IMG/VR virus record: IMGVR_UViG_3300017706_001715
Coordinates: 1 to 22,319 of that record
Length of the DNA stretch: 22,319 nucleotides
Source: a virus
Reading direction: 5' to 3' (one strand)
A program made the translations under genes and the position numbers. Numbering within the stretch: the first letter of the stretch is position 1; the number at the start of each line of letters is the position of its first letter. The notes beneath the pieces are model-generated. The model searched no databases, had not been told where the DNA came from, and was given only the letters and a program-made list of their open reading frames with translations. Positions 228 to 21,978 of this stretch are shown here, in pieces.

Positions 228-800
228 ATGAAATTAAATAGAAGACAATTAAGAAGACTAATTGAAAGTACAATTTTAGAACAAGAAGGTGGTTCTACAT
301 CAGGGTCACAAAAGGCGGCCGCAGCAACCGACAGTCGAAACGTTAATTGGGCAATGACACCTCCGAAAGGCATGGCCCAACACAAAAAGAATATGAAGCG
401 CGTCTCGTACGCAGATAGGCAGGACTATACTGACTATGACCAAGACATATCCTTCGACGGGACACATGCAAAAGATATGCAAGCAGATCAAGATCTAGGG
501 TTTATTAAGCTCTATGACGACATTAATATTCCTGCGGGACAAAGTGTAAAATTTAAAGCCAAATACTTTTATGATGAAGGCTCTTTGTATACAAAAAAAG
601 GAGATCACACTAAACTTGCCGCGAAGATTGACAACAGCAAATTAATGGTCACTGACGAAGATTCTACCTACGGCCGTTTCTTTGCGCCAGATACAGTCGT
701 CTCTATCAGTCTAGACTCGGGTCCAAAAGAAGTGACTTGGTATATTAAGAACAGTGGGAATAGACCGGTTGTGATGCAGATTGAAGAGCCCACCGCTTAA
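228..800 (+). CDS. Tagged protein of unknown function, first of the block
   Basis: The 190-residue product starts MKLNRRQLRRLIES, a full copy of the tag, with [IL]-x-E sites ending at E13 and E18. After a low-complexity linker rich in Gly, Ser and Ala (residues 20-35), the body is polar and Tyr/Asp-rich. Its last ~90 residues look like a small beta-sandwich, with alternating hydrophobic strands such as SVKFKAKYFY and DTVVSISL. AAGGAG at 217-222 lies five bases before the ATG, which fixes the start. A terminator lies upstream, so it probably has its own promoter in the AT-rich 163-215, though I see no convincing -35/-10 pair. I do not recognise the body. A packaged head protein is inferred from the tag only. 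Confidence 0.85.
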   Translation: MKLNRRQLRRLIESTILEQEGGSTSGSQKAAAATDSRNVNWAMTPPKGMAQHKKNMKRVSYADRQDYTDYDQDISFDGTHAKDMQADQDLGFIKLYDDINIPAGQSVKFKAKYFYDEGSLYTKKGDHTKLAAKIDNSKLMVTDEDSTYGRFFAPDTVVSISLDSGPKEVTWYIKNSGNRPVVMQIEEPTA

Positions 801-829
801 AAGACGTTTAATTTAACATAAGTATTGAT

Positions 830-838
830 CTGTATAAT
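830..838 (+). promoter_or_regulatory. Candidate promoter -10 box (CTGTATAAT)
   Basis: TATAAT at 833-838 is a perfect sigma70-type -10 hexamer in the 91-base gap before the gene at 892. The same nine bases recur in two other gene leaders (3671-3679 and 21941-21949). The best -35 candidate is TTTAAC at 812-817 with a short 15-base spacer. The leader beyond it contains a 5-bp hairpin (846-850 with 856-860). Confidence 0.35.
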
Positions 839-891
839 ATTTAAATGTGCATAGCGCACAATTCACACATTACATACACACAGGAGGAAAT

Positions 892-1104
892 ATGAGTGGA
901 AACCCTTACAGCCTGAGAGCAGGCTTATTATCACAAGCAGAAAGTATCTTGTCACACAGATATCATTCAGAATACGAAAGAATAAGATATCTATGTGATA
1001 GAGACTTATTAGATATGACAACAGTCACATGGCCAACAATGCCAACGTCTGAAGAAATTATTGCTGAAGCAGAAAAATTATATAAGTTTGTACAGACAAA
1101 ATAA
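892..1104 (+). CDS. Small conserved phage protein of unknown function
   Basis: This is a 70-residue product. A longer reading from a GTG at 847 is possible, but AGGAGG at 882-887 sits five bases before the ATG at 892 and the upstream stretch looks like leader, so I start here. The N-terminal half is a predicted helix (SLRAGLLSQAESILSHRY). The C-terminal half carries W-P-x-x-P-T-x-E-E-I-I-A-E-A-E-K-L-Y-x-F-V, a pattern I remember from short proteins of many marine T4-like phages, none with a firm function. It has no tag and no membrane segment. It is cytosolic, or a minor virion part, by inference. Confidence 0.8.
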   Translation: MSGNPYSLRAGLLSQAESILSHRYHSEYERIRYLCDRDLLDMTTVTWPTMPTSEEIIAEAEKLYKFVQTK

Positions 1105-1152
1105 TTTATCAATTATCTAGAAAATTGCATAATTATCTTTAGCGAGGTGATT

Positions 1153-1767
1153 ATGCTTTTTTTATATTGGATGTTAAGCTTTTTATACGCAGAAAGCACG
1201 ACAATAATCGTAGAAGATCACGCAAACATTGAGGTTTATGTTAATACGCCTAAAATTGTAAATTATTCTGCAGAAACTGAGGGAGTTATTAGCAGCAAGT
1301 CTGTTTATTCATACAATAGTATCTACTGGAAAAGCGGAAGAGTTATAAATGAGCGTGGGACTTGGGACAAACTAGGCAATAGATCAGTTGTAAAAGTCTA
1401 CGATAAAGAAACAATAGAATACGCACATCGTAATTGTAATTACTTACTTGACGCTAAAAAATGTGCAAACCTAAATAATCACTATTTAATCGAGACAATT
1501 ATCACAATTGATGATCATGAAACTGTTGTTCAAATGATGTTATTTAATCCTGACATGACTCTACTAAATGTTGCAACAGTATCTGACCGTGGTAAGATTA
1601 ACTACATAAAACAGCAAGAAACACGTATATCAATGACTCAAGGACGAATTGATATGAGAGTAATGCCTGAGCAAAAGCCACTTAAGTGGATCATACCTGC
1701 GCACCTTTTAGAAGGATATGTAAGGCAAGCCGCACATGGTCTCTGGTTAGGAGTTAAAATACAGTGA
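1153..1767 (+). CDS. Possible exported protein of unknown function
   Basis: This is a 204-residue product. The in-frame GTG at 1147 overlaps the likely ribosome site AGCGAGG (1141-1147), so the ATG at 1153 is preferred. The first 13 residues, MLFLYWMLSFLYA, are almost wholly hydrophobic and end in an acceptable signal-peptidase site (LYA before ES), although the usual positive N-region is missing, so this could also be a short membrane anchor. The rest is beta-rich with many Tyr and Ile. Two cysteines, C95 and C104, lie close enough to form a disulfide after export. There is no tag. Its TGA overlaps the GTG of the next gene by four bases, so the two are probably translated together. Candidate roles such as envelope modification or superinfection exclusion are guesses. 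Confidence 0.75.
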   Translation: MLFLYWMLSFLYAESTTIIVEDHANIEVYVNTPKIVNYSAETEGVISSKSVYSYNSIYWKSGRVINERGTWDKLGNRSVVKVYDKETIEYAHRNCNYLLDAKKCANLNNHYLIETIITIDDHETVVQMMLFNPDMTLLNVATVSDRGKINYIKQQETRISMTQGRIDMRVMPEQKPLKWIIPAHLLEGYVRQAAHGLWLGVKIQ

Positions 1768-2630
1768 AAATAACAAGAAGCCAGCTAGACGAGATAATTT
1801 ATCGAGAACTAAATGAAGGTTTTTTTGATAATCTATTTAAAAGCAAAAAAACAAAAAGAGCTGAAGCTGCAGCAGAAGCAGCTGAGGTTGAGGCACAAGA
1901 TAGACAAAAAATCAGAGAATACTACAAAGACTACTTAGTAATTAGCAAGTTTTTTATGGTCGACCAAAATTGGCACCAAAACTATGCTTTTGTTTGTCAA
2001 GACACAACCGGTAAAAAAACTCTCTGGTACCAGTCAGGTCGAGAAGAAATAATGGTTCAGATCGCAGGAATTGGGATCAATCCATACCCACCAAAGCACA
2101 AGTATGCACCCGGATCAATGTGGCTGTGTAAGTCAACTCCACTAAAAAGACCCTACGGTGGATCAACTGAAGAGAAAATCTACGAGATTTTAAATACATA
2201 CAATAATGGATTTGACACAAGAGATGCATTACCGTTTCCAAAAGAGCTAGTTAATCAATTAAGCGAGAATGGAAAAAACAAATTTTTAAAGCTATGGAGA
2301 TCTGAGATTGTAAAGATGGGTAAAGGTCAAGATGGTGTTGTATTTTACCGCGTTTCTAGTAATGTAGATTCACCAAACATTCAAGAAGCTATAATGGCAG
2401 CAATAAGAGCAACATCAGAAATGTCTGATGACAGCATAGACGGCGCTGGTGCATTACTTGACAATCTTTTGCAATTACGAAAACTCTATGCAGAAAATGA
2501 TCCTTACACACAAGAAACTTATGAGAAGGCTGATGATTTGATGCTCAATCTAAATAAAGCACTAGGGTATACATCAATGCTGCCTTCGAGATTTGACTCA
2601 TCATGGGCAGATGAGCTTTATTCTGAATAA
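1764..2630 (+). CDS. Tagged protein of unknown function with Ala/Glu-rich helix
   Basis: This is a 288-residue product from a GTG start inside the previous stop (GTGA). GGAG about ten bases upstream gives weak ribosome binding, so coupling is likely. It begins MKITRSQLDEIIYREL; the tag is slightly divergent (Asp-Glu at 9-10) and the best [IL]-x-E site is LNE ending at E18. Residues 25-50 are a charged helix (KKTKRAEAAAEAAEVEAQ) that could be a linker or short coiled coil. Residues 55-130 look like a compact beta domain with several Trp and Tyr, and the C-terminal ~90 residues are helical and acidic. I recognise no enzyme motif. It lies between a possible exported protein and another tagged gene. 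Confidence 0.82.
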   Translation: MKITRSQLDEIIYRELNEGFFDNLFKSKKTKRAEAAAEAAEVEAQDRQKIREYYKDYLVISKFFMVDQNWHQNYAFVCQDTTGKKTLWYQSGREEIMVQIAGIGINPYPPKHKYAPGSMWLCKSTPLKRPYGGSTEEKIYEILNTYNNGFDTRDALPFPKELVNQLSENGKNKFLKLWRSEIVKMGKGQDGVVFYRVSSNVDSPNIQEAIMAAIRATSEMSDDSIDGAGALLDNLLQLRKLYAENDPYTQETYEKADDLMLNLNKALGYTSMLPSRFDSSWADELYSE

Positions 2631-2657
2631 ACTTTTATTATTAACCAAGAGAGAAAA

Positions 2658-3311
2658 ATGAAAATAACAAAGAATCAACTAAAAAAAATTATTATTGAAA
2701 TGATCACCGTTGGGCCTGATGGCACAGCAATTTATTTAGATCCACATGGAGATTCACCTCTAGAGACAGAAAAAAGACTCAGAGACGAATATGTTAAAGA
2801 TCATTATCCTGATAAGAGAATTACAGATCTTGCGAAAAGCGGGCCTGAATTTCATGTTACTGCTAGAACTATAGCTGACGAACTCGATGATTACCAAGCT
2901 GGTCAACTATCTCCTGAGCAAGAAATTGCGCAAGCAATGTATGATAAAGATGCAGTTAGTCTGCCTATTACATGGCAAGGCAAAGATTATAGCGATGAAT
3001 ATTCAGTAGTTCGTCGGCAAGTTACAAAATTAATGGAAGATGAACTTAATAGCATTGATCCAAATAAAGACTTAGATCATATCCAAATACTTGATCGTCT
3101 ATATGATGCAGGACACCGATCAAGGTTGTTAAAAAAAATGATAGATCATTTTGATAATTTATCACCTGAAGAAAGTATGACAGACGGTGCGAACATTGTG
3201 TTCGGATTTGAAAGCCTTCCTGTTGATGTTGTTTACGACATTAATAAAAAATATAAAATTGTCGATCATGACGAATATATTAATTGGCGTGCAATGACAA
3301 ACTACAGGTAG
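2658..3311 (+). CDS. Tagged protein, paralogue of the genes at 9297 and probably 7272
   Basis: This 217-residue product begins MKITKNQLKKIIIEM, a tag with IIE ending at E14. AGAGAG lies shortly before the ATG. Residues 52-96 carry D-x-R-I-x-D-L-x-x-S-G, then A-R-T-I-A-D and L-x-P-E-x-E-x-A-Q-x-M-Y-D. The tagged gene at 9297 has the same succession with small gaps, so the two bodies are related and not just the tags. The protein is acidic and mainly helical, with no catalytic signature that I can name. Its last ten bases overlap the end of the leftward gene at 3302-3640 (convergent), with no terminator between them. Confidence 0.82.
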   Translation: MKITKNQLKKIIIEMITVGPDGTAIYLDPHGDSPLETEKRLRDEYVKDHYPDKRITDLAKSGPEFHVTARTIADELDDYQAGQLSPEQEIAQAMYDKDAVSLPITWQGKDYSDEYSVVRRQVTKLMEDELNSIDPNKDLDHIQILDRLYDAGHRSRLLKKMIDHFDNLSPEESMTDGANIVFGFESLPVDVVYDINKKYKIVDHDEYINWRAMTNYR

Positions 3312-3640
3312 TTTTTCCACGCAAATTTTGCTCTTTTATTTAAATAATCTTCATCATACATTTTACGATAAGCTTCTTGCTCGAATGGAATATTCATGTA
3401 GGCCTCGTCATTGGTCATTCCTGCTACTTTACCTTTAGCCCAATAAAAACCATATAGCAAATAGAAAGGAATAACCCAGAGTTCACGTTGTTGTTCTATA
3501 TGAATGCATTCATGTCTTATTGTTACCTCGCTCATTTCGTCACGCGAGATAATAAAAGGAAAAAGTGTTATTGCACCGATATTAATGAATATTGACAAGT
3601 ACTTAGGGATGTTACTATTCTGTATGATAATAGGTTTCAT
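3302..3640 (-). CDS. HExxH metalloprotease-like membrane protein, only leftward gene
   Basis: This is a 112-residue product. A hydrophobic N-terminal stretch (about residues 14-31) is followed by H43-E-C-I-H47, a zinc-protease HExxH motif, then a second hydrophobic stretch around 55-67, and N-I-P-F-E87-Q-E89-A-Y, where a Glu could be the third zinc ligand. I recall short bacterial proteins of the same plan, with HExxH, an aromatic membrane-like stretch and a [NS]-x-x-F-E-x-E-A motif, common in Bacteroidetes and uncharacterised. AGGAG stands before the ATG on the minus strand, and the start region diverges from the gene at 3713. Its lone orientation and bacterial look suggest an acquired accessory gene. 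Proteolysis is inferred from the motif only. Confidence 0.78.
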   Translation of the reverse strand: MKPIIIQNSNIPKYLSIFINIGAITLFPFIISRDEMSEVTIRHECIHIEQQRELWVIPFYLLYGFYWAKGKVAGMTNDEAYMNIPFEQEAYRKMYDEDYLNKRAKFAWKNYL

Positions 3641-3670
3641 TATAATTCTCCTGTAAACTTTAGTTAGTTA

Positions 3671-3679
3671 CTGTATAAT
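3671..3679 (+). promoter_or_regulatory. Candidate promoter -10 box (CTGTATAAT) in a divergent gap
   Basis: TATAAT at 3674-3679 lies in the 72-base gap between the leftward gene (start at 3640) and the rightward gene at 3713, where new rightward transcription is needed. It is the second of three identical nine-base copies. A weak -35 candidate is TGTAAA at 3652-3657 with a 16-base spacer. Confidence 0.4.
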
Positions 3680-3712
3680 TATCATTATCATACAAATAAA
3701 ACGGAGGTTATG

Positions 3713-3919
3713 ATGCCAGCAAAGAAGACAGCAGCAGAAGAATGTTGCGCAAAATGTGAAAAAGATATTGCAGCACTTAAGAAAGAAATTGCAGGTCTTA
3801 AAAAAGAACTTGCAAAGAAACCAGCAGGTGGCACAGATCCACGGGTTGATAAATTAATTGAAGCTATTAAACTTTTTGGAAATGCGCAAAGACAAAAATT
3901 AGAAAGTAACGGTCTTTAA
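3713..3919 (+). CDS. Coiled-coil mini-protein with N-terminal cysteine cluster
   Basis: This is a 68-residue product. Two ATGs stand in tandem at 3710 and 3713; GGAGG at 3703-3707 is spaced properly (five bases) only for the second. After a Lys/Ala-rich start comes E-C-C-A-K-C, then a regular heptad-like helix (DIAALKKEIAGLKKELAKK), a Pro-Gly-Gly turn and a second amphipathic helix ending in KLESNGL. A short oligomeric coiled coil is the clear reading. The cysteines could bind metal or cross-link subunits. There is no tag. Similar short coiled coils serve as trimer stalks in phage structures, but a virion role is a guess. A structured element and the beta-rich gene at 4014 follow. Confidence 0.75.
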   Translation: MPAKKTAAEECCAKCEKDIAALKKEIAGLKKELAKKPAGGTDPRVDKLIEAIKLFGNAQRQKLESNGL

Positions 3920-3937
3920 TGATATATACTAATAGGC

Positions 3938-3976
3938 CCGGTACACAGCATATAGGCGACCCCACCGTCGTACCGG
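3938..3976 (+). other. GC-rich inverted repeat, possible RNA hairpin
   Basis: CCGGTAC at 3938-3944 pairs with GTACCGG at 3970-3976. Inside, GGCG (3955-3958) can pair with CGTC (3966-3969) with one G-U. No T run follows, so it is not a normal terminator. It sits in the untranslated leader of the gene at 4014 and is far richer in GC than its surroundings. It could be an RNA processing or stability element, or a protein-binding site. Confidence 0.45.
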
Positions 3977-4013
3977 AACCTTGTGGACAATATCACTCTC
4001 AATGGAGGAAATT

Positions 4014-4466
4014 ATGCCAAAAGTAGTAACAACATCCGCGAAAGGACTAGTGCAGTCTACCGGTGCAGGAGTACAGATCAACAATGGTTTGTCCTTAGGC
4101 GGAATTCAAACAATCACAGTACCTGCAGCCGCAGCCGCAGCTGCAGCAAGTAGAATTAGTGCTGATACAACAACTGTTATTTTAAGCTCAGCCGGTGCTG
4201 GTAATAGAGTTTACTTACCTGATCCAGGCTCAGTACCTGCAGGAAAAATTTATTTTTTAATTCTTGGAGGAAGTACCAACTGTGAGTTATGCTCTGAAGG
4301 TGTTAGTGTTGCCTTTAATGACACAACAGGTGTAACATCTGGATCCGGAGCAGCTGCCAAAGAATTAGTTTTGGTTGCACAAACTGTCACTGTGTGTATT
4401 AGAGAAAGTGCAACAAAATGGAGAATAGTAACACTTGCAGACGGTGGAGCAGCTGACGCTGTATAA
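4014..4466 (+). CDS. Beta-rich small protein, probable virion structural or decoration protein
   Basis: This is a 150-residue product. A TTG at 3981 would add 11 residues, but GGAGG at 4004-4008 is positioned for the ATG at 4014. The chain is rich in Gly, Ala, Thr and Val with few charges, and opens MPKVVTTSAKGLVQS. An unbroken run of eight alanines after V-P (about residues 38-45) is followed by repeated hydrophobic strands (TTTVILSS, GKIYFLILGG, ELVLVAQTVTVCI). This composition fits a secreted-like or virion beta-barrel such as a head decoration or fibre-tip protein, but I recognise no named family. There is no tag. Its own strong terminator follows, and a hairpin precedes it, so it may be a separate, strongly expressed transcription unit. 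Confidence 0.8.
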   Translation: MPKVVTTSAKGLVQSTGAGVQINNGLSLGGIQTITVPAAAAAAAASRISADTTTVILSSAGAGNRVYLPDPGSVPAGKIYFLILGGSTNCELCSEGVSVAFNDTTGVTSGSGAAAKELVLVAQTVTVCIRESATKWRIVTLADGGAADAV

Positions 4467-4492
4467 GATATTTACTATGCAGTAAATTTATT

Positions 4493-4520
4493 AAAGACAC
4501 TCTTCGGGGTGTCTTTTTTT
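4493..4520 (+). terminator. Rho-independent terminator with C(UUCG)G loop
   Basis: AAAGACACTC at 4493-4502 pairs over ten positions (one G-U) with 4507-4516 around a TTCG loop, and the T run continues to 4520. It has the same architecture as the terminator at 130-162. It ends the transcript of the 4014 gene, so the tagged genes from 4580 on need their own promoter or readthrough. Confidence 0.9.
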
Positions 4521-4579
4521 GTGTAGCAAATTCAGTCAGACCAAGATAATTAGTATTGATATAAAACTAGGAGTTTATT

Positions 4580-4903
4580 ATGTCTTTAGTTAATAGAAAT
4601 AAAATTAGAAAATTAATTTTAAAAGAATTTAAAATGATGGGAATGGCAGGTATGGGTCATGCTGGCATGATGCCAATGGGATTCTCAAGTCCTGAGCCTG
4701 CCCACGGTGAAATGGATCACGGTATGGATCACGGTATGGATCACGGGCACTCAGCAATGAAGCCGTCTAAGAGTTGTGTTTCACGTGAAGATTGCTGTGC
4801 TGCAATTATGTGTTTAGTTGAATGTTGCGAATGCCCAATTACAAAAAAAATGATAATGGAGTGTTGCGAAGACATAATGTCAGGTGCTTACGACGGAAAA
4901 TAA
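4580..4903 (+). CDS. Tagged Met/His/Cys-rich protein, likely metal (copper) binder
   Basis: This 107-residue product has a divergent tag: MSLVNRNKIRKLILKE keeps the basic residues, the helix pattern and L-x-E ending at E16. Residues 19-60 are Met/Gly/His-rich and include three M-D-H-G repeats (45-56). The C-terminal part has nine cysteines (66, 72, 73, 78, 82, 83, 85, 95, 96) along a predicted helical pair. In total there are 16 Met and six His. This composition recalls copper-binding proteins: Met/His segments as in periplasmic copper carriers, and Cys-lined helices as in copper-storage or four-helix copper-binding proteins. Metal binding is thus well supported, while the choice of copper is inferred. 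AGGAG precedes the ATG. It ends directly against the next ATG. Confidence 0.82.
   Translation: MSLVNRNKIRKLILKEFKMMGMAGMGHAGMMPMGFSSPEPAHGEMDHGMDHGMDHGHSAMKPSKSCVSREDCCAAIMCLVECCECPITKKMIMECCEDIMSGAYDGK
4712..4747 (+). repeat. Three tandem copies of a 12-bp unit encoding MDHG
   Basis: ATGGATCACGGT occurs at 4712-4723 and 4724-4735, and again at 4736-4747 with a final G for T. The near-perfect DNA identity indicates recent expansion by slippage within the metal-binding segment, so copy number may vary among relatives. Confidence 0.9.
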
Positions 4904-5821
4904 ATGAAAATTACAAAACGCCAGCTAGTCAATATGATAAGAGAGTCAATTCAACCTCTTTCTCGATCAGCCCAGTTTGAAAAAATTAAAGGCTTAATTG
5001 ACACTGCTGAAGATGATAGCTTTTTAAACACCGCTGAATCTTTTATTGATTCTTTAAGCGGTGTTCTGCCTAATGAAGAAACTCTTCTTTTAAGAATTGA
5101 CTTGGCTTTAAAATCAAACAACTTTAAAGATATTCCTGATCTTGTTTATGAAGTAATGGGGTCTGAGAATAATTTTTGGGAACCTGATGATGTTGGGACA
5201 GATTATCTTCGAAGAGTTATGTTTAAATACACGGGAGACTATTCAGGTACTAAAAATAACTTTGCAGATACCTATTCTATTTTTAATGACTTTAATCAAA
5301 AATACGGAAGAAATATCTCTTATGCAGTTGGAGCACAATCTAGTAAAGCGCCTGGCTCAAAGTTAATGTTAGGAAAGACAGCAGAGATGTATATCATGGG
5401 AAAGAAATACTTGTCAGAAAACTTAAATGTTTCAGAATACGACTGGTATGGCTTTTATGTTGATGTTGATAAAGAAACAATTAAAAATGGATTAAATTCA
5501 AATCCTGCTTTCGAGTTAACTTATCACCCATATAAGTCAAAAGCTTCGATTACAGTTGGCAAACAAAGCAAATTAAAAACTTATTCTCGCGCTTTTGACC
5601 CATACTCAGACGAAAATGTTTTTGTGTATGCGAAAAATGACAATACAAAAGACAACAATAATTGGGAAATTTTTAGTAGTATCGACCTTGATGGCAATGT
5701 AATTACCAATGGAGTCCCTATCGTTGACGTCATAAGTGGGCTTGAAATTTTCCCTTTTTTAGAAAAAATTTTTCCAGCATCAGGAAATTTATTTAAGTTA
5801 CTCAATAGCTATGAAGATTAA
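4904..5821 (+). CDS. Tagged protein of unknown function, 305 residues
   Basis: The ATG directly follows the TAA of the metal-binder gene, so translation is probably coupled. The tag reads MKITKRQLVNMIRES with IRE ending at E14. Residues 22-95 are helical and acidic. Residues 100-200 hold an aromatic-rich section (NNFADTYSIFNDFNQKYG, then EMYIMGKKYLSE). The rest looks beta-rich (WYGFYVDVD, FELTYHPYKSKASITVG) and ends in a hydrophobic helix FPFLEKIF. No cysteine clusters or catalytic motifs are visible and I cannot name a family. A small tyrosine-rich alpha/beta domain after the propeptide is the most that can be said. Confidence 0.82.
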   Translation: MKITKRQLVNMIRESIQPLSRSAQFEKIKGLIDTAEDDSFLNTAESFIDSLSGVLPNEETLLLRIDLALKSNNFKDIPDLVYEVMGSENNFWEPDDVGTDYLRRVMFKYTGDYSGTKNNFADTYSIFNDFNQKYGRNISYAVGAQSSKAPGSKLMLGKTAEMYIMGKKYLSENLNVSEYDWYGFYVDVDKETIKNGLNSNPAFELTYHPYKSKASITVGKQSKLKTYSRAFDPYSDENVFVYAKNDNTKDNNNWEIFSSIDLDGNVITNGVPIVDVISGLEIFPFLEKIFPASGNLFKLLNSYED

Positions 5822-6512
5822 AATAAAAATTACACGACGCGAACTAGAAAAACTAATTCAAGAAGAGATTAGAAGCGTGCCAGGCGGCTACAAGGTTTAT
5901 CCAAAAAAACCTAAACCTGGTAAAAAGCGTCGTGAAGCGTTATCTAAAAAACCCCTTAGCTATGAAAAAGCCTTGGCACAACTTAAGGCAGTCAAAGCAT
6001 CAAATGAATCTGACGAAGTTGATGAAAGCCGCAAAAAGAAAAGGCGTCATCCAAGGTTTCGACCACCTAGAAATAAACGTGACAATCCTTGCGGAAAAGG
6101 TTTTGCACCAGGTGCTCAGTCCGGAGTAAAAACAAAAATAGGTTATCATAGCAAAAGGCGCGTGTCTAATTGTGAAAAAATTACAGAAGCAGATCCTAAA
6201 GTTGGAACAGGAAAGAAACCTAAAGGAAGCGGTCGTCGCTTATATACAGATGAAAACCCTAGGGACACTGTTAAGGTTAAGTTTAAAACTGCAACTGATA
6301 TTAGGAAAACATTGGCAAAGAAAAGTTTTAAATCCAAAAGTCATAATCGTCAATCCCAGATAATTAATCTTATACACCAGCGTGTACGAGCTGCTTATAA
6401 GAACGCAAAAGATCCTGCGACAAAAAAACGTTTAAAGCGTGCATATGATTATGCAAAAGAAAGAAAAGAAGCTAGTAAGAAGAAAACACAGCGTATGAGG
6501 AAAAAGAAATGA
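5811..6512 (+). CDS. Tagged, very basic protein, possible DNA-condensing internal protein
   Basis: This is a 233-residue product whose ATG lies 11 bases inside the previous gene. The tag has an N-terminal duplication (MKIKIKITRRELEKLIQEE) with IQE ending at E18. A second [ILV]-x-E site, V-D-E ending at E72, is followed at once by SRKKKRRHPRF. The body is strongly Lys/Arg-rich. The part from about residue 125 (DPKVGTGKKPKGSGRRLY, then DENPRDTVKVKF) matches what I remember of an uncharacterised family common in giant and marine viruses, DUF5872, but I could not check this. The C-terminal ~65 residues are basic helices. Binding packaged DNA, as T4 basic internal proteins do, is the natural inference. 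Confidence 0.83.
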   Translation: MKIKIKITRRELEKLIQEEIRSVPGGYKVYPKKPKPGKKRREALSKKPLSYEKALAQLKAVKASNESDEVDESRKKKRRHPRFRPPRNKRDNPCGKGFAPGAQSGVKTKIGYHSKRRVSNCEKITEADPKVGTGKKPKGSGRRLYTDENPRDTVKVKFKTATDIRKTLAKKSFKSKSHNRQSQIINLIHQRVRAAYKNAKDPATKKRLKRAYDYAKERKEASKKKTQRMRKKK

Positions 6513-7258
6513 CAATTAGCAGAAGACAACTTAGAGCAATAATTGCAGAAGCGATTAGAAAGCCTATTTTTTCTAAAGTTCAACCTGAAGAGATTGATGC
6601 GATTCGACAAGCAGCTCGTGATAAAGTGGGTATTGATGATATGATTGGTCCGGAAAAAGCAGAAAAGCTAAGAATAAGAGCACAAGAGCCAGGCGGCAAA
6701 GATCAGGTTAGATCGCTATACCAGACATTTGGATCTGATGAACCAGATTTTACGTCAGCGTCTGAAGACGAGTTTTACATGGCTCAATCTGCACATGACA
6801 AAAAAATAATGGATGAAAACGCGACAGAACTAAGTTTAAAACTCCTCAGAGGCGGCGCCGACATGCTAAATGCAATTGCTGAAATGAAAGAACTAGGAAT
6901 GCTTAGAGGGTCACCGGTGGCTTTGATGGACTATTATCCAACCATGGAGCCTGAAAAGGTAAGGATTATAATTAACTTGACAGCCGAAGCCACTAAGTCT
7001 TTTACTCCTGTGTTAAAAAAAGCGATGCAGGCAGACTCAACGACTAGAAAGCTTAGGTTTAACAATGGACTTGCTGCAGTCAGAGGATTTGCAGGTGGAT
7101 ATTTCGAGACAGACAAACCAAAGCTATCTGGTGAACCATATAGCGGAATTGCAATACGCTTCGATACTCGGTATAAAAATAAGACTGGGATAATTATACA
7201 AATTAGAGGCGGCAAGCAATTGAAACAGATAAAGCAGTTTATAAAAGCTATTTATTAA
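6509..7258 (+). CDS. Tagged protein of unknown function, 249 residues
   Basis: The ATG overlaps the previous TGA (ATGA), with GAGG about ten bases upstream. The tag MTISRRQLRAIIAEA ends in IAE at E14, very like the processing site I remember for T4 internal protein IPIII (FIAE). Residues 20-150 are helical and charged, with an acidic stretch near 75-90 (SDEPDFTSASEDEF). Residues 150-249 alternate strands and helices (KVRIIINLTAEA, GIAIRFDTRYKNKTGIIIQIRGG), suggesting a small alpha/beta fold. I see no catalytic signature. The next gene starts 13 bases downstream. Confidence 0.82.
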   Translation: MTISRRQLRAIIAEAIRKPIFSKVQPEEIDAIRQAARDKVGIDDMIGPEKAEKLRIRAQEPGGKDQVRSLYQTFGSDEPDFTSASEDEFYMAQSAHDKKIMDENATELSLKLLRGGADMLNAIAEMKELGMLRGSPVALMDYYPTMEPEKVRIIINLTAEATKSFTPVLKKAMQADSTTRKLRFNNGLAAVRGFAGGYFETDKPKLSGEPYSGIAIRFDTRYKNKTGIIIQIRGGKQLKQIKQFIKAIY

Positions 7259-7271
7259 ACAGGAAAAATTA

Positions 7272-8186
7272 ATGAAAATAACAAGAAAACAATTAAGAAA
7301 AATAATTCAAGAATCAATTTATGGTCGAGGAAAATACAAGCCAGGCCCTGTCGATCCGATGACAAAAATAAGCACGGGAGGCGGGACATCTACAAACAGA
7401 ATTCCTGATGCATATCGAGGCAAGTTAGATACTTTAGCAAGTGATCCTAATACCTCAGCAATGGCGGATTCTATGGCACCTCTGTTACAGACACCAGACT
7501 TAGTTATTCCTTTTGAAGGTGACGCTTATGAAGAAAAAGCTTTCAAAGGCGATAGTTACGAAGATGAACTGTTAAAACACAGTAAGAGAAATCCTGCTCT
7601 TTTAATTTTACCAATCAAGAAAGAGATAAATAAGCATATTCCAAATTTAGAAAAAGTTTTGGATAGAGAAATAGGTTCAAAGATTAGCTCTTCGTCACGA
7701 CTTTCTTACGATTGGTCTATTCCTCACGACGGTGTTGTTGTTAAGGTAGATTCTAATATTATAACACTGGACGATATGGCCCTTCTAGCAGCAGAAGCTC
7801 TTTTTGGTATAAACTCACCAAAATGTCAGAAATTAAAAAGTTTCCCGCCCCATGACTTATACTATTTAATTGCAAGTAATGATTTTAATTTTACTGAGCT
7901 TACGAATTCTGAAAATAAATCAATTTTTGATGCAACTCAGCATTCTTTTTCTGCATACCTTGCATACAAGGCGATCACTAACGGTTGTTCAATAAACTTT
8001 GGATCTGAGTGGATTGGATCTAGTTATTGTAACATTGGATATCGAGATCACGACGTACCACAAGAGATCGAGTTTTATAGTTTTAATAAGCTAGGGCCTG
8101 CAATATTTAATGCAGCAAAAGTTTTTGACAATATTACTATTGAAGGTGAGAAAATATTAAGCAACGCTAAGTTGGCTTTAAAATGA
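7272..8186 (+). CDS. Tagged protein, probable distant paralogue of the 9297 gene
   Basis: This 304-residue product has the tag MKITRKQLRKIIQES (IQE ending at E14) and AGGA before the ATG. A Gly/Pro/Thr-rich linker follows (20-45). Residues 51-70 (KLDTLASDPN then MADSM) align loosely with the shared motif of the 2658 and 9297 products. DLYYLIAS at 195-202 matches DLYMIAS in the 9297 product, so common ancestry is likely though distant. The section around 145-180 contains a strand-rich part (DGVVVKVDSNIITLDD) followed by a helix. Three cysteines occur (185 and two in the last third). I cannot name a function. Confidence 0.82.
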   Translation: MKITRKQLRKIIQESIYGRGKYKPGPVDPMTKISTGGGTSTNRIPDAYRGKLDTLASDPNTSAMADSMAPLLQTPDLVIPFEGDAYEEKAFKGDSYEDELLKHSKRNPALLILPIKKEINKHIPNLEKVLDREIGSKISSSSRLSYDWSIPHDGVVVKVDSNIITLDDMALLAAEALFGINSPKCQKLKSFPPHDLYYLIASNDFNFTELTNSENKSIFDATQHSFSAYLAYKAITNGCSINFGSEWIGSSYCNIGYRDHDVPQEIEFYSFNKLGPAIFNAAKVFDNITIEGEKILSNAKLALK

Positions 8187-8611
8187 AACTAACAAGAAGG
8201 CAATTAAGAGAAATTATATGTGAGACTTTAAATATTGAGTTTCACAATTCTCCTACTGCTGAAGAAAAATCATCAATGATCAAGGGCTTGCTTGATATGT
8301 TTAACGTAGAAGATGCTTTGCAAGAAAAAAAGAAAAGCAAAAGAAAGAAAATTGACTATAAAAAAGCTTATAAAAAGTATCATAGTTCAAAGAAAGCAAA
8401 GAAAGAGAGAGCACAAAGAAACGCAGCAGGAAGAAAGTTAAAAAAGGCAGGCGTCAAGATACCTGACGGTTATGAAATCGATCATAAAAATCCGATTAGT
8501 AATGGCGGAACAAATGACATAACAAATTTAAGGTTAATTTCAAGAGAAAAAAACAGAGCCTTGGGTCAAAAAATAACAACTAAGAAAAGAAAGAGTAAGG
8601 GTAAATACTAG
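8183..8611 (+). CDS. Tagged HNH endonuclease
   Basis: This is a 142-residue product with ATGA overlap at its start. The tag MKLTRRQLREIICET has ICE ending at E14. A second L-Q-E site (46-48) is directly followed by KKKSKRKK. After a strongly basic helix (60-88) comes a compact HNH core: G-Y-E-I-D100-H101, the general-base His, then N-G-G-T-N-D-I-T-N115-L-R and S-R-E-K-N124, the third position being Asn as in the HNN subtype. No zinc-knuckle cysteines are present. Nicking or cutting of DNA is inferred from the motif. What is odd is the combination with a putative capsid-targeting propeptide, which would put a nuclease inside the head or deliver it to the host. A free-standing homing endonuclease is the alternative. 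Confidence 0.88.
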   Translation: MKLTRRQLREIICETLNIEFHNSPTAEEKSSMIKGLLDMFNVEDALQEKKKSKRKKIDYKKAYKKYHSSKKAKKERAQRNAAGRKLKKAGVKIPDGYEIDHKNPISNGGTNDITNLRLISREKNRALGQKITTKKRKSKGKY

Positions 8612-9300
8612 TGAGAATTACACGTCGCAAACTTAAAATGATTATTGAGTCTTTTTTACAAGAAGATAACAAAAAACTATGGGTTTGCCCTAAGTGTGGT
8701 CATAAACATAAAAAAGAACCTTCAAAAAAATGTTCTAATTGTGGCCATCTATATGACGATAAATTTCAAAATAAAAATTGGTCGAAACCAAACGAAAAGA
8801 TTAATGAAAAAAAGAGAAAACGACGCGGCTTAAAAGAAACACAATGTCCTACTGCAACAGTAGATATCAGTGTTAATACAGCTAACAGAGACCGCGCGAG
8901 ACTACTTGACTGGATTATATACGGCCCGCTAAATGTTGAATTTCCTGGTAATTATTGGAAAAAGATAGCAAAAAAGTGGAAAACAAACCCTGAAGCTGCA
9001 AAGGAATCAAATTGTGGTAACTGTGTCTCGTTTGATCGATCACCAAAGATGGTTGATGAATGCATACCTGCAATCACAACTGAACCTGTTGCAGATAAGT
9101 TTGGTGTTTTAGGTTATTGTTGGATGCACCATTTTAAATGTCATAGTGCTAGAACTTGTAATACATGGGCTGCAGGTGGACCAATTAAAACTGACGCTTC
9201 ATCAGCTGAATGGTTTGAACGTAATAAAGAAGGCGCACTAAAGAAAGATCCAATCGATCCAAATATATATAAGGACGATACTTCGCAGGAGTCAAAGTGA
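8611..9300 (+). CDS. Tagged zinc-ribbon protein with C-terminal Cys-rich domain
   Basis: This 229-residue product from a GTG sharing one base with the previous TAG starts MRITRRKLKMIIES, with possible sites after E13 and E18. Residues 24-46 are a two-knuckle zinc ribbon (C26-P-K-C29 and C41-S-N-C44). I-N-E (64-66) followed by KKRKRRG is a second processing-like site. The C-terminal domain (about 79-190) has C135-G-N-C138, C151, G-Y-C170-W, C177 and C183-N-T-W. I recall this C-x2-C...G-Y-C...C-x2-W plan from uncharacterised marine phage proteins, and it resembles the cysteine spacing of small iron-sulfur (HiPIP-like) proteins. Zinc binding by the ribbon is well supported; an iron-sulfur centre is only a possibility. 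Confidence 0.85.
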   Translation: MRITRRKLKMIIESFLQEDNKKLWVCPKCGHKHKKEPSKKCSNCGHLYDDKFQNKNWSKPNEKINEKKRKRRGLKETQCPTATVDISVNTANRDRARLLDWIIYGPLNVEFPGNYWKKIAKKWKTNPEAAKESNCGNCVSFDRSPKMVDECIPAITTEPVADKFGVLGYCWMHHFKCHSARTCNTWAAGGPIKTDASSAEWFERNKEGALKKDPIDPNIYKDDTSQESK

Positions 9301-9992
9301 AAATAACAAGAAGACAATTAAGAAAATTAATAAACGAAACAATCTTTGCTGGTGGTCCAACTGTTGACAGCCCTGACAAAAGTGTTGGCGTAACGGTTGA
9401 CATGGGAAGAAATGTTTCACCTAAGGCTCGTAAAGAGTACCAACGCGACAAAGCGATAAGAAAAGCTGATCCTAGATTGGAAGATTTAATGAGCGGTGAT
9501 GAGACAGACCAGAACATGGCGCGAACTTTGGCAGACACAATGTTTGGTATTCCAGAAAAAGGCGAACCTTTAAACCCTGAAGAAGAATATGCACAAGGAT
9601 TGTGGGATGAATTCCAGGACGAAAAATTTGATGGTCGATTTATAAAACCTAGAATGTACAGACACCACGACATGCCTGATGAGCGTTTGCAGAGATCGTA
9701 TGCGCCTGAAATAAAACAATTGGAAGCCGCTATGACAAAAAGAGTTCAAGCAGCAATTGATAAAGGCTTTGCAGATTATGATGATTTGTATATGATTGCC
9801 TCTGAAACAACTCCAGGATATGGTGCTCTAAAGCGTTCGCTTTATCGTGAAAAGAAAAAGCGCTTTGGTTCTGCAGTTTCTAATGACGGAAGTTTGACGG
9901 GTGCATACGGTCGTGACCCGAGTGATGAATTAGATTATTTGCCCACGAATGTACTAAAGAGACTGGGTATAACAGAAGATCCGTATTATTAA
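9297..9992 (+). CDS. Tagged protein, paralogue of the 2658 gene
   Basis: This 231-residue product has a GTG overlapping the previous TGA (GTGA) and AGGAG seven bases upstream. The tag MKITRRQLRKLINET is the best match to the consensus, with INE ending at E14. Residues 58-104 repeat the motif order of the 2658 product: D-x-R-L-x-D-L-x-S-G, A-R-T-L-A-D (75-80), L-x-P-E-E-E-x-A-Q (92-100) and W-D. DLYMIAS at 163-169 is shared with the 7272 product. The C-terminal part is basic and then acidic, ending ITEDPYY. Its function is unknown. A packaged protein family expanded by duplication is inferred. Confidence 0.84.
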   Translation: MKITRRQLRKLINETIFAGGPTVDSPDKSVGVTVDMGRNVSPKARKEYQRDKAIRKADPRLEDLMSGDETDQNMARTLADTMFGIPEKGEPLNPEEEYAQGLWDEFQDEKFDGRFIKPRMYRHHDMPDERLQRSYAPEIKQLEAAMTKRVQAAIDKGFADYDDLYMIASETTPGYGALKRSLYREKKKRFGSAVSNDGSLTGAYGRDPSDELDYLPTNVLKRLGITEDPYY

Positions 9993-9997
9993 GTTTT

Positions 9998-10366
9998 ATG
10001 CCTAGAAAAAAGAAAAAGAAAAAGTTGTGGAGTAAACAATCTAAGTATAAGTGCAAGGACGGCAGTTTAGTCTTGATGGATAGTACATGGGAAGTTGCCA
10101 TGGCGAAGAGGTTAGACCATCTTAAAATAACATGGGATCGTAGAGAAGACATGAAGCTGCCTTACTATTCTAAGACAGGGCGTAAAAGAAATTATATACC
10201 TGATTTTTATCTACCTGACTATGATACTTATATTGAAGTAAAAGGTTACTGGACTGATGCCGCAAGGTATAAAATGAATTCCGTTCAAGATACAAACCCA
10301 GTAAAAATCGTTATACTAGAATCATTAGAGGCAGTAAACAAATTTAGTCGGAGAAAATTAAAGTGA
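9998..10366 (+). CDS. PD-(D/E)XK-type endonuclease, untagged
   Basis: This is a 122-residue product that begins with a polylysine start (PRKKKKKK) instead of the tag. The core shows E32 on a helix (STWEVAMAKRLD), a strand pair, then Y-I-P-D69-F-Y-L-P and Y-I-E80-V-K82-G, the classic D...E-x-K arrangement of the PD-(D/E)XK nucleases and especially of small phage Vsr/TnsA-like or homing endonucleases. All three catalytic positions are present, so it should be active. It starts five bases after the previous stop and its TGA overlaps the next GTG, so it is embedded in the tagged string. A homing enzyme or a DNA-processing function are both possible. Confidence 0.88.
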   Translation: MPRKKKKKKLWSKQSKYKCKDGSLVLMDSTWEVAMAKRLDHLKITWDRREDMKLPYYSKTGRKRNYIPDFYLPDYDTYIEVKGYWTDAARYKMNSVQDTNPVKIVILESLEAVNKFSRRKLK

Positions 10367-10935
10367 ATCTTACAAGAAGACAGTTAAAAAGATTGATAGA
10401 GCAAGAGCTTAAGCTATCGGACGATCAGCTTAAAAAAATTAAGGATATAAAAGACGAAGAAGACGAAGCAAAAACAACAATTGCCGCTAATTTAAAAGTC
10501 CCTAAAGACATGGTCGATAAGGCTGTTCAAAAGGCAAAAGATGATGAAACTAACGAAAGTGCTTTTTCGTTGTTTGAGTCAAAGTCAAAAGAAATCTCAC
10601 TTAAGTCTGTTGATAAAGCGTTTATTTCTTGCCTTGAAAAAGAGGGCGGAGCAGCTGGTATGGGAATGCTAGTTAATGCTGTTAAATCTCTTGAGAGTAA
10701 AACAAAAAAACTACCGTCAAAACTTTCAAGTAAAGCAAAAATTAAGAAATATATTGCTAGACATGATGCAATATTAATTCATAAATTTAAAGATATTATT
10801 TTAATTAAAGGTTTACCTAAAGCAAAATTGCAAGAAGCTTTAGAAAAGATTGGTTTTTATAAAAAGTATAGTTACGGATTAGATGATATACCAGATCCTA
10901 CAAAAGCACACGATGATATTATTGGACACACATGA
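10363..10935 (+). CDS. Tagged helical protein of unknown function
   Basis: This is a 190-residue product from a GTG (GTGA overlap) with CGGAG ten bases upstream. The tag is MNLTRRQLKRLIEQ with LIE ending at E13. Residues 18-75 are highly charged and helical, an acid/base-rich linker. Residues 80-170 form a basic helical domain (DKAFISCLEKEGG, SKAKIKKYIARHD, then ILIKGLPKAKLQEALEKIGF) whose helix-strand pattern could be a winged-helix-like nucleic-acid binder; this is weak. It stops at TGA followed by CTA, and the reading frame stays open into the next small gene. Confidence 0.82.
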   Translation: MNLTRRQLKRLIEQELKLSDDQLKKIKDIKDEEDEAKTTIAANLKVPKDMVDKAVQKAKDDETNESAFSLFESKSKEISLKSVDKAFISCLEKEGGAAGMGMLVNAVKSLESKTKKLPSKLSSKAKIKKYIARHDAILIHKFKDIILIKGLPKAKLQEALEKIGFYKKYSYGLDDIPDPTKAHDDIIGHT

Positions 10936-10965
10936 CTAACACATGTTAAGCGGAAGGATTCTGCT

Positions 10966-11187
10966 TTGAATGAAATAGGCGAAGTTTTATGGCACTCTTT
11001 AAAAGAAAACGGTGAAATTAACTTTTACGATGTAATGTGGCCAGATGGAAAAATAGAAACAGATATACCTACAAAACTTTTAGAAAAAGTTGCAGATAGT
11101 GATAGTAATGTTGATGAGCATAATGAGCACGGTGTAGACGGTCATGAAGAAGATTTACTGTATTCAAAAAGGAAATATAAAAAATGA
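10966..11187 (+). CDS. Small acidic untagged protein, in frame with the gene before it
   Basis: This 73-residue product has no ATG upstream in frame. TTG at 10966 with GGAAGGA at 10952-10958 seven bases before it is the best start. The first half (GEVLWHSLKENGEINFYDVMW) looks like a small beta hairpin. The second half is acidic and His-rich (DSNVDEHNEHGVDGHEED) and ends in basic SKRKYKK. It is in the same frame as the 10363 gene with only the TGA at 10933-10935 between them, so it could be a readthrough extension or a remnant of a once longer protein. Its TGA overlaps the next ATG. Confidence 0.6.
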   Translation: MNEIGEVLWHSLKENGEINFYDVMWPDGKIETDIPTKLLEKVADSDSNVDEHNEHGVDGHEEDLLYSKRKYKK

Positions 11188-11633
11188 AAATTACAAAAAA
11201 GCAGCTAAAAAAGATAATCGTCGAATCAATTGGTGGGAAGATTGTGACAGTTAAAATGCACGGATCTAATGATTTTGAGATAATTTTAGAAGGTGGAGCT
11301 AGTTCTATTGATACTGATAGAGCTGGCGTTAAAAAAGCTTTACTCAAACTTAAGTCTGAAGGTTACGACTATGTTTATGATGATAAAACAGAAGATATGA
11401 CTGATTTAGAGATGTTTGCTGATATGTTAGATGAGATACTTGAATTTGGCGAATCTTCACCGAGCGGTAATGAAGATTTGAGCTCTATGGATATATTTAC
11501 ACTAGCTAGTCATACTGATCAACTCATGCAAAATCGCAGAAGTCAAGATTTAAATTTTGATGATGATTTTAGCATGTATGACGAAGAAGATAACTCAGAG
11601 GAAAACTCTGATTTTGATGATGAATATATTTGA
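11184..11633 (+). CDS. Tagged protein with strongly acidic tail, last of the block
   Basis: This is a 149-residue product with ATGA overlap and AAGGAA upstream. The tag is MKITKKQLKKIIVES with IVE ending at E14. A short beta-like section (GGKIVTVKMHG, FEIILEGG) is followed by a helix and then an increasingly acidic C-terminus: 14 of the last 30 residues are Asp or Glu (the end reads FDDEYI). Such a tail could act as a DNA mimic, as in T4 internal or anti-restriction proteins, or bind basic partners; neither is shown. The following 88-base gap marks the border to the tail block and holds no gene or clear terminator. Confidence 0.83.
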   Translation: MKITKKQLKKIIVESIGGKIVTVKMHGSNDFEIILEGGASSIDTDRAGVKKALLKLKSEGYDYVYDDKTEDMTDLEMFADMLDEILEFGESSPSGNEDLSSMDIFTLASHTDQLMQNRRSQDLNFDDDFSMYDEEDNSEENSDFDDEYI

Positions 11634-11721: not shown

Positions 11722-12873
11722 ATGGCAACTTTTTCAAATACAACTAATCCAACTCCGTTTGGAATTTATGACAATGAAAGCGACTTCTTATCTGATGCAG
11801 ATAATATGGTTACTTTTGTTAAAAGAAAATTAGGCGATGACATTCTATCAGTTGAGCTTACAAAGAAGCAAATATGGGGAAACTTTGAAGAAGCAACGTT
11901 AGAATATAGTTCGATCCTAAACCAGTATCAGGCCAAATCTCAGCTTGTAAATTTTCTAGGCTTCACCACTGGCAGCATAATGAGCGGCAGTGAGGAAAAG
12001 TATGTAAGGGAAAACCTAGAATTTTTAACAAGATTTGCAGAACCTTACGCGATGGAGGCTGGTATCGGAGGTTCTTATAATTCCCTTAGTGGGTCTATCC
12101 AGCTAGAGGTTGGCCGCCAAGATTACGACTTATATACAGAGTTAAGCGGAGCAAACGGAAGTTTGTTTGATGACACTAGGGGAAAACTTAGGGTTGACGA
12201 AGTTTTTCATTATAATCCACAAGCTGCATATAGATTTTTTGATACAACTTCAGCAATTAATTACTTAAATAATGAATTTAGTTTTGAATCATTTACACCT
12301 GAATCAATCTTTTATATTCTACCTGTCTACGAAGACATTTTAAGAGCTGGGCAACTTGACTTATCTAATAGAGTTAGAAGATCAAATTTTTCTTACAAGA
12401 TTATGGGTAACAATCTTAGAATTTACCCGATACCAACTTCTGAATCTAAAGTTATGCTAAGAGTTAGACAATATCCTGATCCGACTCAACCTTCGTACAA
12501 AGACGACACAGTACATGGGGTTTCAAATATGAGCAATTTACCGTTTGGTAATGTTCAATACAATCGCATAAACAGCATAGGTCGTCAGTGGATCAGGAGT
12601 TTTACTCTTGCTATTTCAATGGAACAACTAGGTTACATTAGGGGTAAGTTTGGAAGTGTTCCTGTGCCTAACGCAGAGGTAACGCTAAACAGCTCCGATT
12701 TGATTAGTAATGGAAGGACAGATAGGGATGGTCTAAAGGAAAAACTTAGAGAAATGCTCGATTCAATGACATATGATAAACTAATGGAGACGCAAGCAAC
12801 TAGATCTGAACAAATACAAAAACAACTAAAATATGTGCCACCTCCAAATGGCAAAGCAATCTTTATGGGATAA
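11722..12873 (+). CDS. gp13: Neck protein, T4 gp13-like
   Basis: This is a 383-residue product, against 309 in T4. CGGAG stands before the ATG. gp13 forms the neck with gp14 and joins the finished head to the tail. The best evidence is the C-terminal part: N-S-I-G-x-Q-W-I at about 284 followed by a helix, then R-G-K-F, V-P-x-P-N-A-E-V-T-L, and S-N-G-R with a terminal coiled region, a succession I know from gp13 of marine T4-like phages. The N-terminus has a helix-rich part (residues 18-75) resembling connector adaptor proteins. The gp14- and gp15-like genes that follow support it. It opens the tail block after an AT-rich 88-base gap that probably holds a promoter. Confidence 0.85.
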   Translation: MATFSNTTNPTPFGIYDNESDFLSDADNMVTFVKRKLGDDILSVELTKKQIWGNFEEATLEYSSILNQYQAKSQLVNFLGFTTGSIMSGSEEKYVRENLEFLTRFAEPYAMEAGIGGSYNSLSGSIQLEVGRQDYDLYTELSGANGSLFDDTRGKLRVDEVFHYNPQAAYRFFDTTSAINYLNNEFSFESFTPESIFYILPVYEDILRAGQLDLSNRVRRSNFSYKIMGNNLRIYPIPTSESKVMLRVRQYPDPTQPSYKDDTVHGVSNMSNLPFGNVQYNRINSIGRQWIRSFTLAISMEQLGYIRGKFGSVPVPNAEVTLNSSDLISNGRTDRDGLKEKLREMLDSMTYDKLMETQATRSEQIQKQLKYVPPPNGKAIFMG

Positions 12874-12876
12874 ACA

Positions 12877-13539
12877 ATGCCAAGACTTTTTATAACGCCG
12901 AGAGAAATTAACTTTATTAATGATATTGCTAAAGAAGTAATTAAGGATGTAATTGGGCAAAAAATATATTTGTTCCAAATATCAGAGATTAAATCAAAAG
13001 TTCATGATGTATATGAAGAAAGCCCAGATAAAGTTTTTGAGACTCCAATTGAGCTAGACTGCTTAGTAAAATATAGTGGTCAAGAAGTGACTACTGATCG
13101 TTTTGGATCAGAGAAATATTTCCAAATTGAAGTTTACGTCCAGTCAAGAGATTTACTTGACAAAGAGATTGAGATACTTGAAGGTGATTTTTTCTCTTAC
13201 GGAAGTATATTTTTTGAGATCACAAAAGCTCCGAGCTCTAATATTATATTTGGTCAAATTGAGCATGAAAGATTTATTACAATTTCAGGTCGTCAGTCTA
13301 GAAAAGATTTGTTTTTGGCTAAGGTATTTGGTCCGACAAGCGAGTCATACTTAGATGCCGATGCAGTCCAAGAAACTTTTGTTCAACAAAGAGGTCAAAA
13401 AGAAAATAGACTAGGAAAGACAGGAGACGTTAGAGACCTACAAAAAAACGGAGTAATCGACGCTCCAATTACCGGACCAAAAGAAGTTTCGCCTAGAGGC
13501 GACTCAACTAACGTTGGTTCTTCATTTTATGACGAATAA
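12877..13539 (+). CDS. gp14: Neck protein, T4 gp14-like
   Basis: This is a 220-residue product, against 256 in T4, starting three bases after the gp13-like gene. The opening I-T-P-R-E-I-N-F-I-N-D-I, the section K-I-Y-x-F-x-I-S-E-I-K-S-K-V-H-D-V-Y-E-E and the beta-rich middle (YFQIEVYVQSRDL, EGDFFSYGSIFFEI) match what I remember of gp14-type neck proteins in marine myoviruses. The product works with gp13 in head completion and tail docking. The C-terminal ~50 residues are polar and probably disordered. Confidence 0.83.
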   Translation: MPRLFITPREINFINDIAKEVIKDVIGQKIYLFQISEIKSKVHDVYEESPDKVFETPIELDCLVKYSGQEVTTDRFGSEKYFQIEVYVQSRDLLDKEIEILEGDFFSYGSIFFEITKAPSSNIIFGQIEHERFITISGRQSRKDLFLAKVFGPTSESYLDADAVQETFVQQRGQKENRLGKTGDVRDLQKNGVIDAPITGPKEVSPRGDSTNVGSSFYDE

Positions 13540-13553
13540 TATAAAGGAATAGC

Positions 13554-14756: not shown

Positions 14757-14811
14757 TTCATTGATAATTAGTAATGTAGAGAATATTTATTTACAATTTA
14801 GGAGAGTTTAA

Positions 14812-17916: not shown

Positions 17917-17947
17917 TAGATAATTAAAATTAAATGGAGAATTAAAT

Positions 17948-21388: not shown

Positions 21389-21421
21389 AAGCCAAATATA
21401 TATAATTAAAAGGAGAATAAA

Positions 21422-21913: not shown

Positions 21914-21933
21914 TTTAAGTTTTAACTTGATAT

Positions 21934-21965
21934 AAAACCTCTGTATAATACACAGAGGTTTTTTT
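21934..21965 (+). terminator. Rho-independent terminator after the tail tube gene
   Basis: AAAACCTCTGT at 21934-21944 pairs perfectly over 11 bp with 21952-21962 around a seven-base loop, followed by T to 21965. It ends the sheath-tube transcript. The loop and the end of the left arm contain TATAAT, so the same DNA may also start the next transcript. Confidence 0.88.
21941..21949 (+). promoter_or_regulatory. Candidate promoter -10 box inside the terminator hairpin
   Basis: CTGTATAAT is the third identical copy of this nine-base sequence in the window. TATAAT is at 21944-21949; TTTAAC at 21921-21926 is a weak -35 at a 17-base spacing. Transcripts would begin near 21956, inside the right arm of the hairpin, so they would escape the terminator. 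The baseplate gene starts 30 bases downstream. Confidence 0.4.
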
Positions 21966-21978
21966 ATAGGAGGAGTGT

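Follow-up and report, generated by a model that had tools for sequence, protein, structure and literature searches.

Why would thirteen proteins that otherwise have little in common begin with the same short peptide? The question is raised by a stretch of viral DNA of 22,319 nucleotides (IMG/VR record IMGVR_UViG_3300017706_001715; hereafter, the window), a 22.3-kb fragment of a T4-like myovirus that does not include the head module. A sequence-only reading of the window had proposed that this N-terminal tag directs a varied set of proteins, the payloads, into the prohead, where it is removed as in the internal proteins of phage T4. From the analysis presented here, the tag is very probably a propeptide that targets proteins to the capsid and is removed by a gp21-type (Peptidase_S77) protease, with the payload retained in the head and probably injected.

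A shared peptide on unrelated proteins

All thirteen starts named in the sequence-only reading belong to genuine open reading frames (ORFs), and each product begins with the tag M-K-[IL]-T-[RK]-x-Q-L-x-x-[IL]-I-x-E. The [LI]-x-E end, which had been placed at residues 13–18 in nearly all copies, is found there in 13 of 13. A position-specific matrix derived from relatives matched twelve of the thirteen starts at 8 bits or more and none in the reversed window. The start at 4580 is divergent, scoring 13 bits, and that at 5811 escapes the matrix solely because its N-terminus is four residues longer (MKIK-IKITRRELEKLIQEE). Scores of 13 bits, the loosest threshold, arise in random 14-mers at a rate of 5e-6, and none of 400,000 attained 20 bits. 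When the first 18 residues were removed, the 11 strongest tagged proteins had no mutual BLAST similarity at E<1e-3, which bears out the earlier claim that the bodies diverge completely. Across 185 distinct N-termini, the information content falls sharply past residues 14–16, and when sets of 74 and 116 tagged proteins were aligned, the N-terminus alone was common to them.

A common start could also be a by-product of recent 5'-end duplication, or a signal in the nucleotides that plays no part in targeting. Where two tags carry the same residue, the codon is identical in 55% of cases versus 45% expected from codon usage; this slight excess favors such an origin, and recent copying of some tag DNA is possible. 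Against it, 45% of identical residues still differ in codon, the peptide is kept across unrelated bodies and distinct genomes, and different peptides replace the tag on homologous bodies, leaving the explanation with next to no credibility. The codon variation is genuine, though not saturated, and the conserved unit is the peptide; the argument from differing codons to selection on the peptide thus stands with that reservation.

The probable cut site, the protease and the prohead core

The cleavage motif of gp21 is L/I-X-E (PMC9026906). Among 452 non-redundant tagged proteins, 436 have an [LI]xE that ends at residues 13–20. Where the glutamate at residue 14 is absent, the motif ends instead at 13 or 15–20 in 72 of 79 proteins, compared to 74 of 373 that possess it (p=6e-34). 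Compensation remains evident when only residues 15–20 are counted, columns that were unused in tag detection (p=1e-19). The face of a helix would not shift in this manner; a cut site can.

A protein that is exposed to such a protease and survives should avoid the motif elsewhere. The bodies (residue 31 onward) of 420 non-redundant tagged proteins were compared with 625 proteins from the same genomes that lack a tag, giving observed/expected (O/E) ratios for [LI]xE of 0.89 and 1.09, respectively (bootstrap 95% confidence interval of the log ratio, -0.30 to -0.12). Of the 400 XxY pairs, none is as strongly depleted in the tagged bodies as LxE; [LI]xD is enriched there, and neither VxE nor AxE is depleted. 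The depletion persists in each length class and in each tag class. In contrast, the prohead core proteins are rich in the motif, with O/E ratios of 1.83 for gp22, 2.34 for the gene before S77 and 3.36 for the gene after S77. T4 presents a like contrast, with 2.28 for gp22/67/68 and 0 sites in mature IPI–III. Low values in payloads and high values in core proteins are the pattern expected of payloads exposed to a gp21-type protease.

Peptidase_S77 and gp23 occur in an identical 12 of 50 tag contigs, the HK97-type capsid family PF05065 occurs in 0 of 50, and wherever a capsid gene could be identified in a tagged contig, S77 was present too. Further S77 genes are present in relatives G001 and G017, in G087, a contig bearing a second class of tag, and in the huge phage LR756508. 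The sequence-only reading would have been contradicted by tagged genes in phages devoid of a prohead protease; these were looked for and not found, with S77 present in 12 of 12 gp23 contigs. Contig G041 (29 tags, no S77) was considered as a counter-example and dropped, as it begins inside the tail sheath and is without all head genes. The co-occurrence is consistent with a functional link and falls short of proof.

A further connection lies beside the protease gene. In nearly all S77 loci, a short gene directly or one after S77 encodes a core protein that starts M-[SK]-K-[IL]-S-R-x-x-L-K-x-I-V-K-E-C-L-V-E-I-L, which closely resembles the tag sequence K-[IL]-T-R-x-x-L-R-x-I-I-K-E. From this likeness, the prohead core would be the most likely docking surface of the tag. 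The basic amphipathic helix of the tag probably docks on the core by mimicking the N-terminus of the protease-adjacent core protein, and the payload would become enclosed in the prohead. The gp21-type protease would then cut after [LI]-x-E at about residue 14 with loss of the tag, and the mature payload would remain in the head, probably to be injected along with the DNA. We infer the docking partner, cleavage, packaging, ejection and action of the payloads on a new host from these patterns.

Other features of the head loci were observed. In G024:C1:15115-16599, G030:C1:29715-31196, G032:C1:52303-53784 and LR756508 (156507-158102), S77 is split into two parts separated by about 1 kb, both inside a single frame of 556–576 amino acids (aa), which suggests that the gene for the prohead protease is interrupted by an intein or a large in-frame insertion. 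Tandem pairs of major capsid (gp23) genes are found at G059:C1:176509-180120 and G067:C1:139350-142938. In Mel-JY01, a gene within the head gene cluster (L003 22183-22410) carries the annotation ribosomal protein bS21, and a small basic ORF at about 128.3 kb of G042 is similar to bS21 by eye; bS21 has been reported for other large phages.

Spread and exchange of tags, and their payloads

A scan with the neck protein gathered 80 relatives. Seven related IMG/VR contigs (135–293 kb) contain 8–35 tags each, compared to 0 in reversed-sequence controls: G017 has 27 tagged genes (202 kb), G001 35 (237 kb), G042 29 (273 kb), G059 31 (293 kb), G053 21 (185 kb), G084 8 (160 kb) and G041 29 (135 kb). Many are arrayed in tandem, as at 47.6–57.8 kb of G059, where 21 tags follow one another, and a DNA pattern scan of IMG/VR identified 77 stretches. 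A tblastn search of cultured phages with a 22-aa consensus gave no match, the query probably being too short. In LR756508 (484 kb; L005 14254-19807, 44298-45727), clusters of short ORFs start with a tag variant, MKLTExKLRKIIxEEIxxVL; the idea of a uniquely marine-myovirus tag was dropped on account of these similar N-termini. Several ORFs of another huge phage, LR756502 (642 kb; L275), start M[KR]xLKx[FY]xxFE (MKYLKIFEDFVE, MRYLKQYIIFE), possibly a further class resembling the capsid-targeting sequence (CTS) of T4.

The tag can be exchanged for another. Seven payload families carry the tag of the window (class 1) in one phage and M-[KN]-x-L-R-[QE]-Y-I-R-x-[IL]-L-x-E (class 2) in another; in one such pair the bodies are 71% identical and the tags wholly different. 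Class 2 builds arrays of its own, with 16–17 nearly consecutive genes at G042:C1:249605-262829 (L220 9605-20000, L221 1-3660). It resembles the T4 sequence MKTYQEFIAE at positions 4, 7, 8 and 10; by mutation, residues 4 and 7 of the T4 CTS were assigned to targeting and residues 8 and 10 to processing (PMC9026906). In homologues of the 8611 product (L061, L037, L049), the tag is replaced by ..ESWRKFLKE/A, spaced as in T4 YQEFIAE/A. A 5'-nucleotidase is found behind a class-1 tag, behind a class-2 tag and with no tag, and the untagged enzymes of most cultured phages begin at the end point of the tag. The first regular expressions for a third tag class matched little in the tested loci beyond IPII and IPIII of T4 itself.

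The only usable AlphaFold model, that of a payload family with both tag classes, is fair (predicted local distance difference test, pLDDT = 73) and presents the tag as a low-confidence helix outside a folded domain that starts from about residue 20. A Foldseek search with this model returned weak acetyltransferase-like matches only, and the model of the 8611 family was poor (pLDDT = 51). A basic amphipathic helix (mean net charge +3.6) might also remain uncleaved and dock on RNA polymerase (phage or host), a sliding clamp, the ribosome or the membrane, recruiting the payload after infection. Such a role is very unlikely, as it leaves unexplained the moving [LI]xE, the avoidance of L/I-x-E in the bodies, the link to S77 and the core, and the exchange with tags that resemble the T4 CTS. 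A T4-like peptide removed after [LI]-x-E, as the sequence-only reading had it, draws support from the shifting register, the depletion in bodies and enrichment in core proteins, and the co-occurrence with S77, and further support from the N-terminus of the core protein beside S77 and from the tag swaps on homologous payloads.

What the payloads do is less readily discerned. Their bodies have a median length of 150 aa, and 297 of 568 resemble no other member of the set. Among 190 tagged proteins, Pfam matches are limited to a handful (L,D-transpeptidase, TseH-like, HNH, SET, HD, LysM, 5'-3' exonuclease); class-2 proteins add a PAP2 match and a weak ART-PolyVal match. Pfam and PHROG are silent on most payloads, with approximately 95% having no recognisable function. 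This silence, together with the closest in-genome match of the tag being the start of core proteins beside S77, would suit proteins that are loaded and cut but serve as accessory scaffold or core, to be degraded, expelled or kept as structural filler. That outcome is improbable: the core proteins are [LI]xE-rich (1.8–3.4) and the tagged bodies depleted, as if the bodies must survive, and the payloads are diverse, arranged in arrays, poorly conserved and in some cases possess enzyme domains (L,D-transpeptidase, TseH-like, HNH, SET, HD, PAP2, ART-like). The payloads with a domain match look more like host-acting than structural proteins and would be putative effectors.

The organisation of the window is given in Table 1. 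The proposal of an ~11-kb block of tagged payloads stands as regards the thirteen genes, but seven untagged genes are interspersed (847, 1147, 3302 on the minus strand, 3710, 3981, 9998 and 10966) and relatives are tagged genome-wide, with several arrays and a second tag class, making the block view too narrow. In G017, a complete-looking relative, the corresponding block sits downstream of S77, flanked by gp23 and the neck gene. The untagged gene at 3302-3640, the single minus-strand gene of the block, matches PHROG 15610 "protease" (E 2e-25), and the one at 9998-10366 resembles an endonuclease or Holliday-junction resolvase. The tagged 1764 product has a likewise tagged homologue in L163 (62% identity), the 9297 product in G017 at 155292, and the 10363 product in L281, L039, L016, L009, L007 and L019; the 5811 product resembles, by eye, a G017 protein at 52463. 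Small proteins similar to the Met/His-rich product of 4580-4903 (GMAGMGHAGMMPMG..MDHGMDHGMDHGH), which is possibly metal-binding, are present in G017 (52167) and G001 (135807). Beyond the block, two very large tail-sheath proteins adjoin each other (14812-17916, 1034 aa; 17948-21388, 1146 aa).

Table 1. Tagged coding sequences (CDS) and their context in the window.
Feature	Coordinates	Strand	Length (aa)	Tag	[LI]xE end (residue)	Remarks
Tagged CDS	228..800	+	190	MKLNRRQLRRLIE	13 and 18	tag followed by S
Tagged CDS	1764..2630	+	288	MKITRSQLDEIIYRELNE	18	GTG start
Tagged CDS	2658..3311	+	217	MKITKNQLKKIIIE	14	
CDS, divergent tag	4580..4903	+	107	MSLVNRNKIRKLILKE	16	body rich in Met/His
Tagged CDS	4904..5821	+	305	MKITKRQLVNMIRE	14	
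Tagged CDS	5811..6512	+	233	MKIKIKITRRELEKLIQE	18	four extra N-terminal residues
Tagged CDS	6509..7258	+	249	MTISRRQLRAIIAE	14	
Tagged CDS	7272..8186	+	304	MKITRKQLRKIIQE	14	
Tagged CDS	8183..8611	+	142	MKLTRRQLREIICE	14	HNH-endonuclease-like
Tagged CDS	8611..9300	+	229	MRITRRKLKMIIE	13/18	Cys-rich N-terminal part
Tagged CDS	9297..9992	+	231	MKITRRQLRKLINE	14	
Tagged CDS	10363..10935	+	190	MNLTRRQLKRLIE	13	
Tagged CDS	11184..11633	+	149	MKITKKQLKKIIVE	14	acidic
Context region	11722..22317	+				T4-type neck (11722), tail sheaths (14812, 17948), tail tube (21422)

Relation to known systems and meaning

In T4 (IPI–III and Alt) and SPN3US, a propeptide targets a protein to the prohead, a gp21-type protease cuts it, and the protein is ejected (PMC9026906, PMC7411985). 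The resemblance to T4 is broad: IPI, IPII, IPIII and Alt are unrelated head-internal proteins with a short N-terminal propeptide, the [LI]-x-E motif, S77 protease and T4-like head gene order are held in common, and in both the mature proteins are poor in further cut sites and the core proteins rich. The differences are found in the tag, MKITRRQLRxIIxE (14 aa) rather than MKTYQEFIAE; in scale, with about 20–45 payloads per genome in most scanned relatives (8 in one) and four in T4; and in the mostly acidic payloads, tandem arrays and several coexisting tag classes. Small basic payloads, a trait of the T4 internal proteins and not of the CTS, are not seen here. The system works like that of T4, and its differing sequence keeps the tag from being classed as a T4 CTS.

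Several observations weigh against a T4-like propeptide. The class-1 tag departs from the T4 CTS pattern M-K-T-[YF]-x-E-F-I-A-E, which the class-2 and W-type tags of relatives resemble, and the payload bodies are acidic (median pI 4.87) where T4 internal proteins are basic. The T4 late-promoter word TATAAATA was not found upstream of the tagged genes. A metabolic role seems likely for a few of the tagged proteins (5'-nucleotidase, 5'-3' exonuclease). Cut sites are depleted as a statistical tendency (about 19%) and not absolutely, the post-S77 protein scores weakly by matrix in the closest relatives (G017, G001), and the linkage to S77 could stem in part from the shared descent of T4-like phages. 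The window itself, being a fragment, has no protease gene, and the support is computational, from which the tagged proteins would be expected in virions.

Giant phages of the SPN3US/phiKZ type also have many ejected head proteins with propeptides cut by a gp21-related protease (PMC7411985). Their propeptides are 111–130 residues in length on about seven proteins, whereas a common 14-aa tag with a conserved stretch of 14–16 residues is placed here on dozens; propeptides of ~100 residues or more are not seen. The anti-restriction Dar proteins of P1 are likewise packaged in the head and associated with protection from the restriction systems of the host (PMC12810830); they are likened by description, with no common short tag implied.

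No description of the tag sequence, the scale or the interchangeable tag classes was found in a library of 5.39 million open-access papers, in agreement with the sequence-only reading that the system was undescribed to its knowledge. These three aspects appear new relative to T4, within that literature; the kind of system is established from the T4 internal proteins and their CTS.

On balance we lean, with some reserve, towards modular capsid-borne effector delivery, in which at least two interchangeable tag classes would load about 20–45 proteins per genome for injection, and hundreds of families would be takeover or anti-defence effectors. If so, the effector candidates include ADP-ribosyltransferase-like, cell-wall, nuclease and methyltransferase proteins, and the arsenal would be comparable in size to that of a bacterial secretion system. 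The tags may extend the range of signals by which proteins can be loaded into phage heads, and the role of the "mysterious" internal proteins of T4 would become testable in many lineages. In raw genomes, the tag would serve as a sequence handle marking which orphan proteins of large marine phages ride in the virion, so that orphan genes in their hundreds would become a definite catalogue of candidates for injected effectors and anti-defence proteins.

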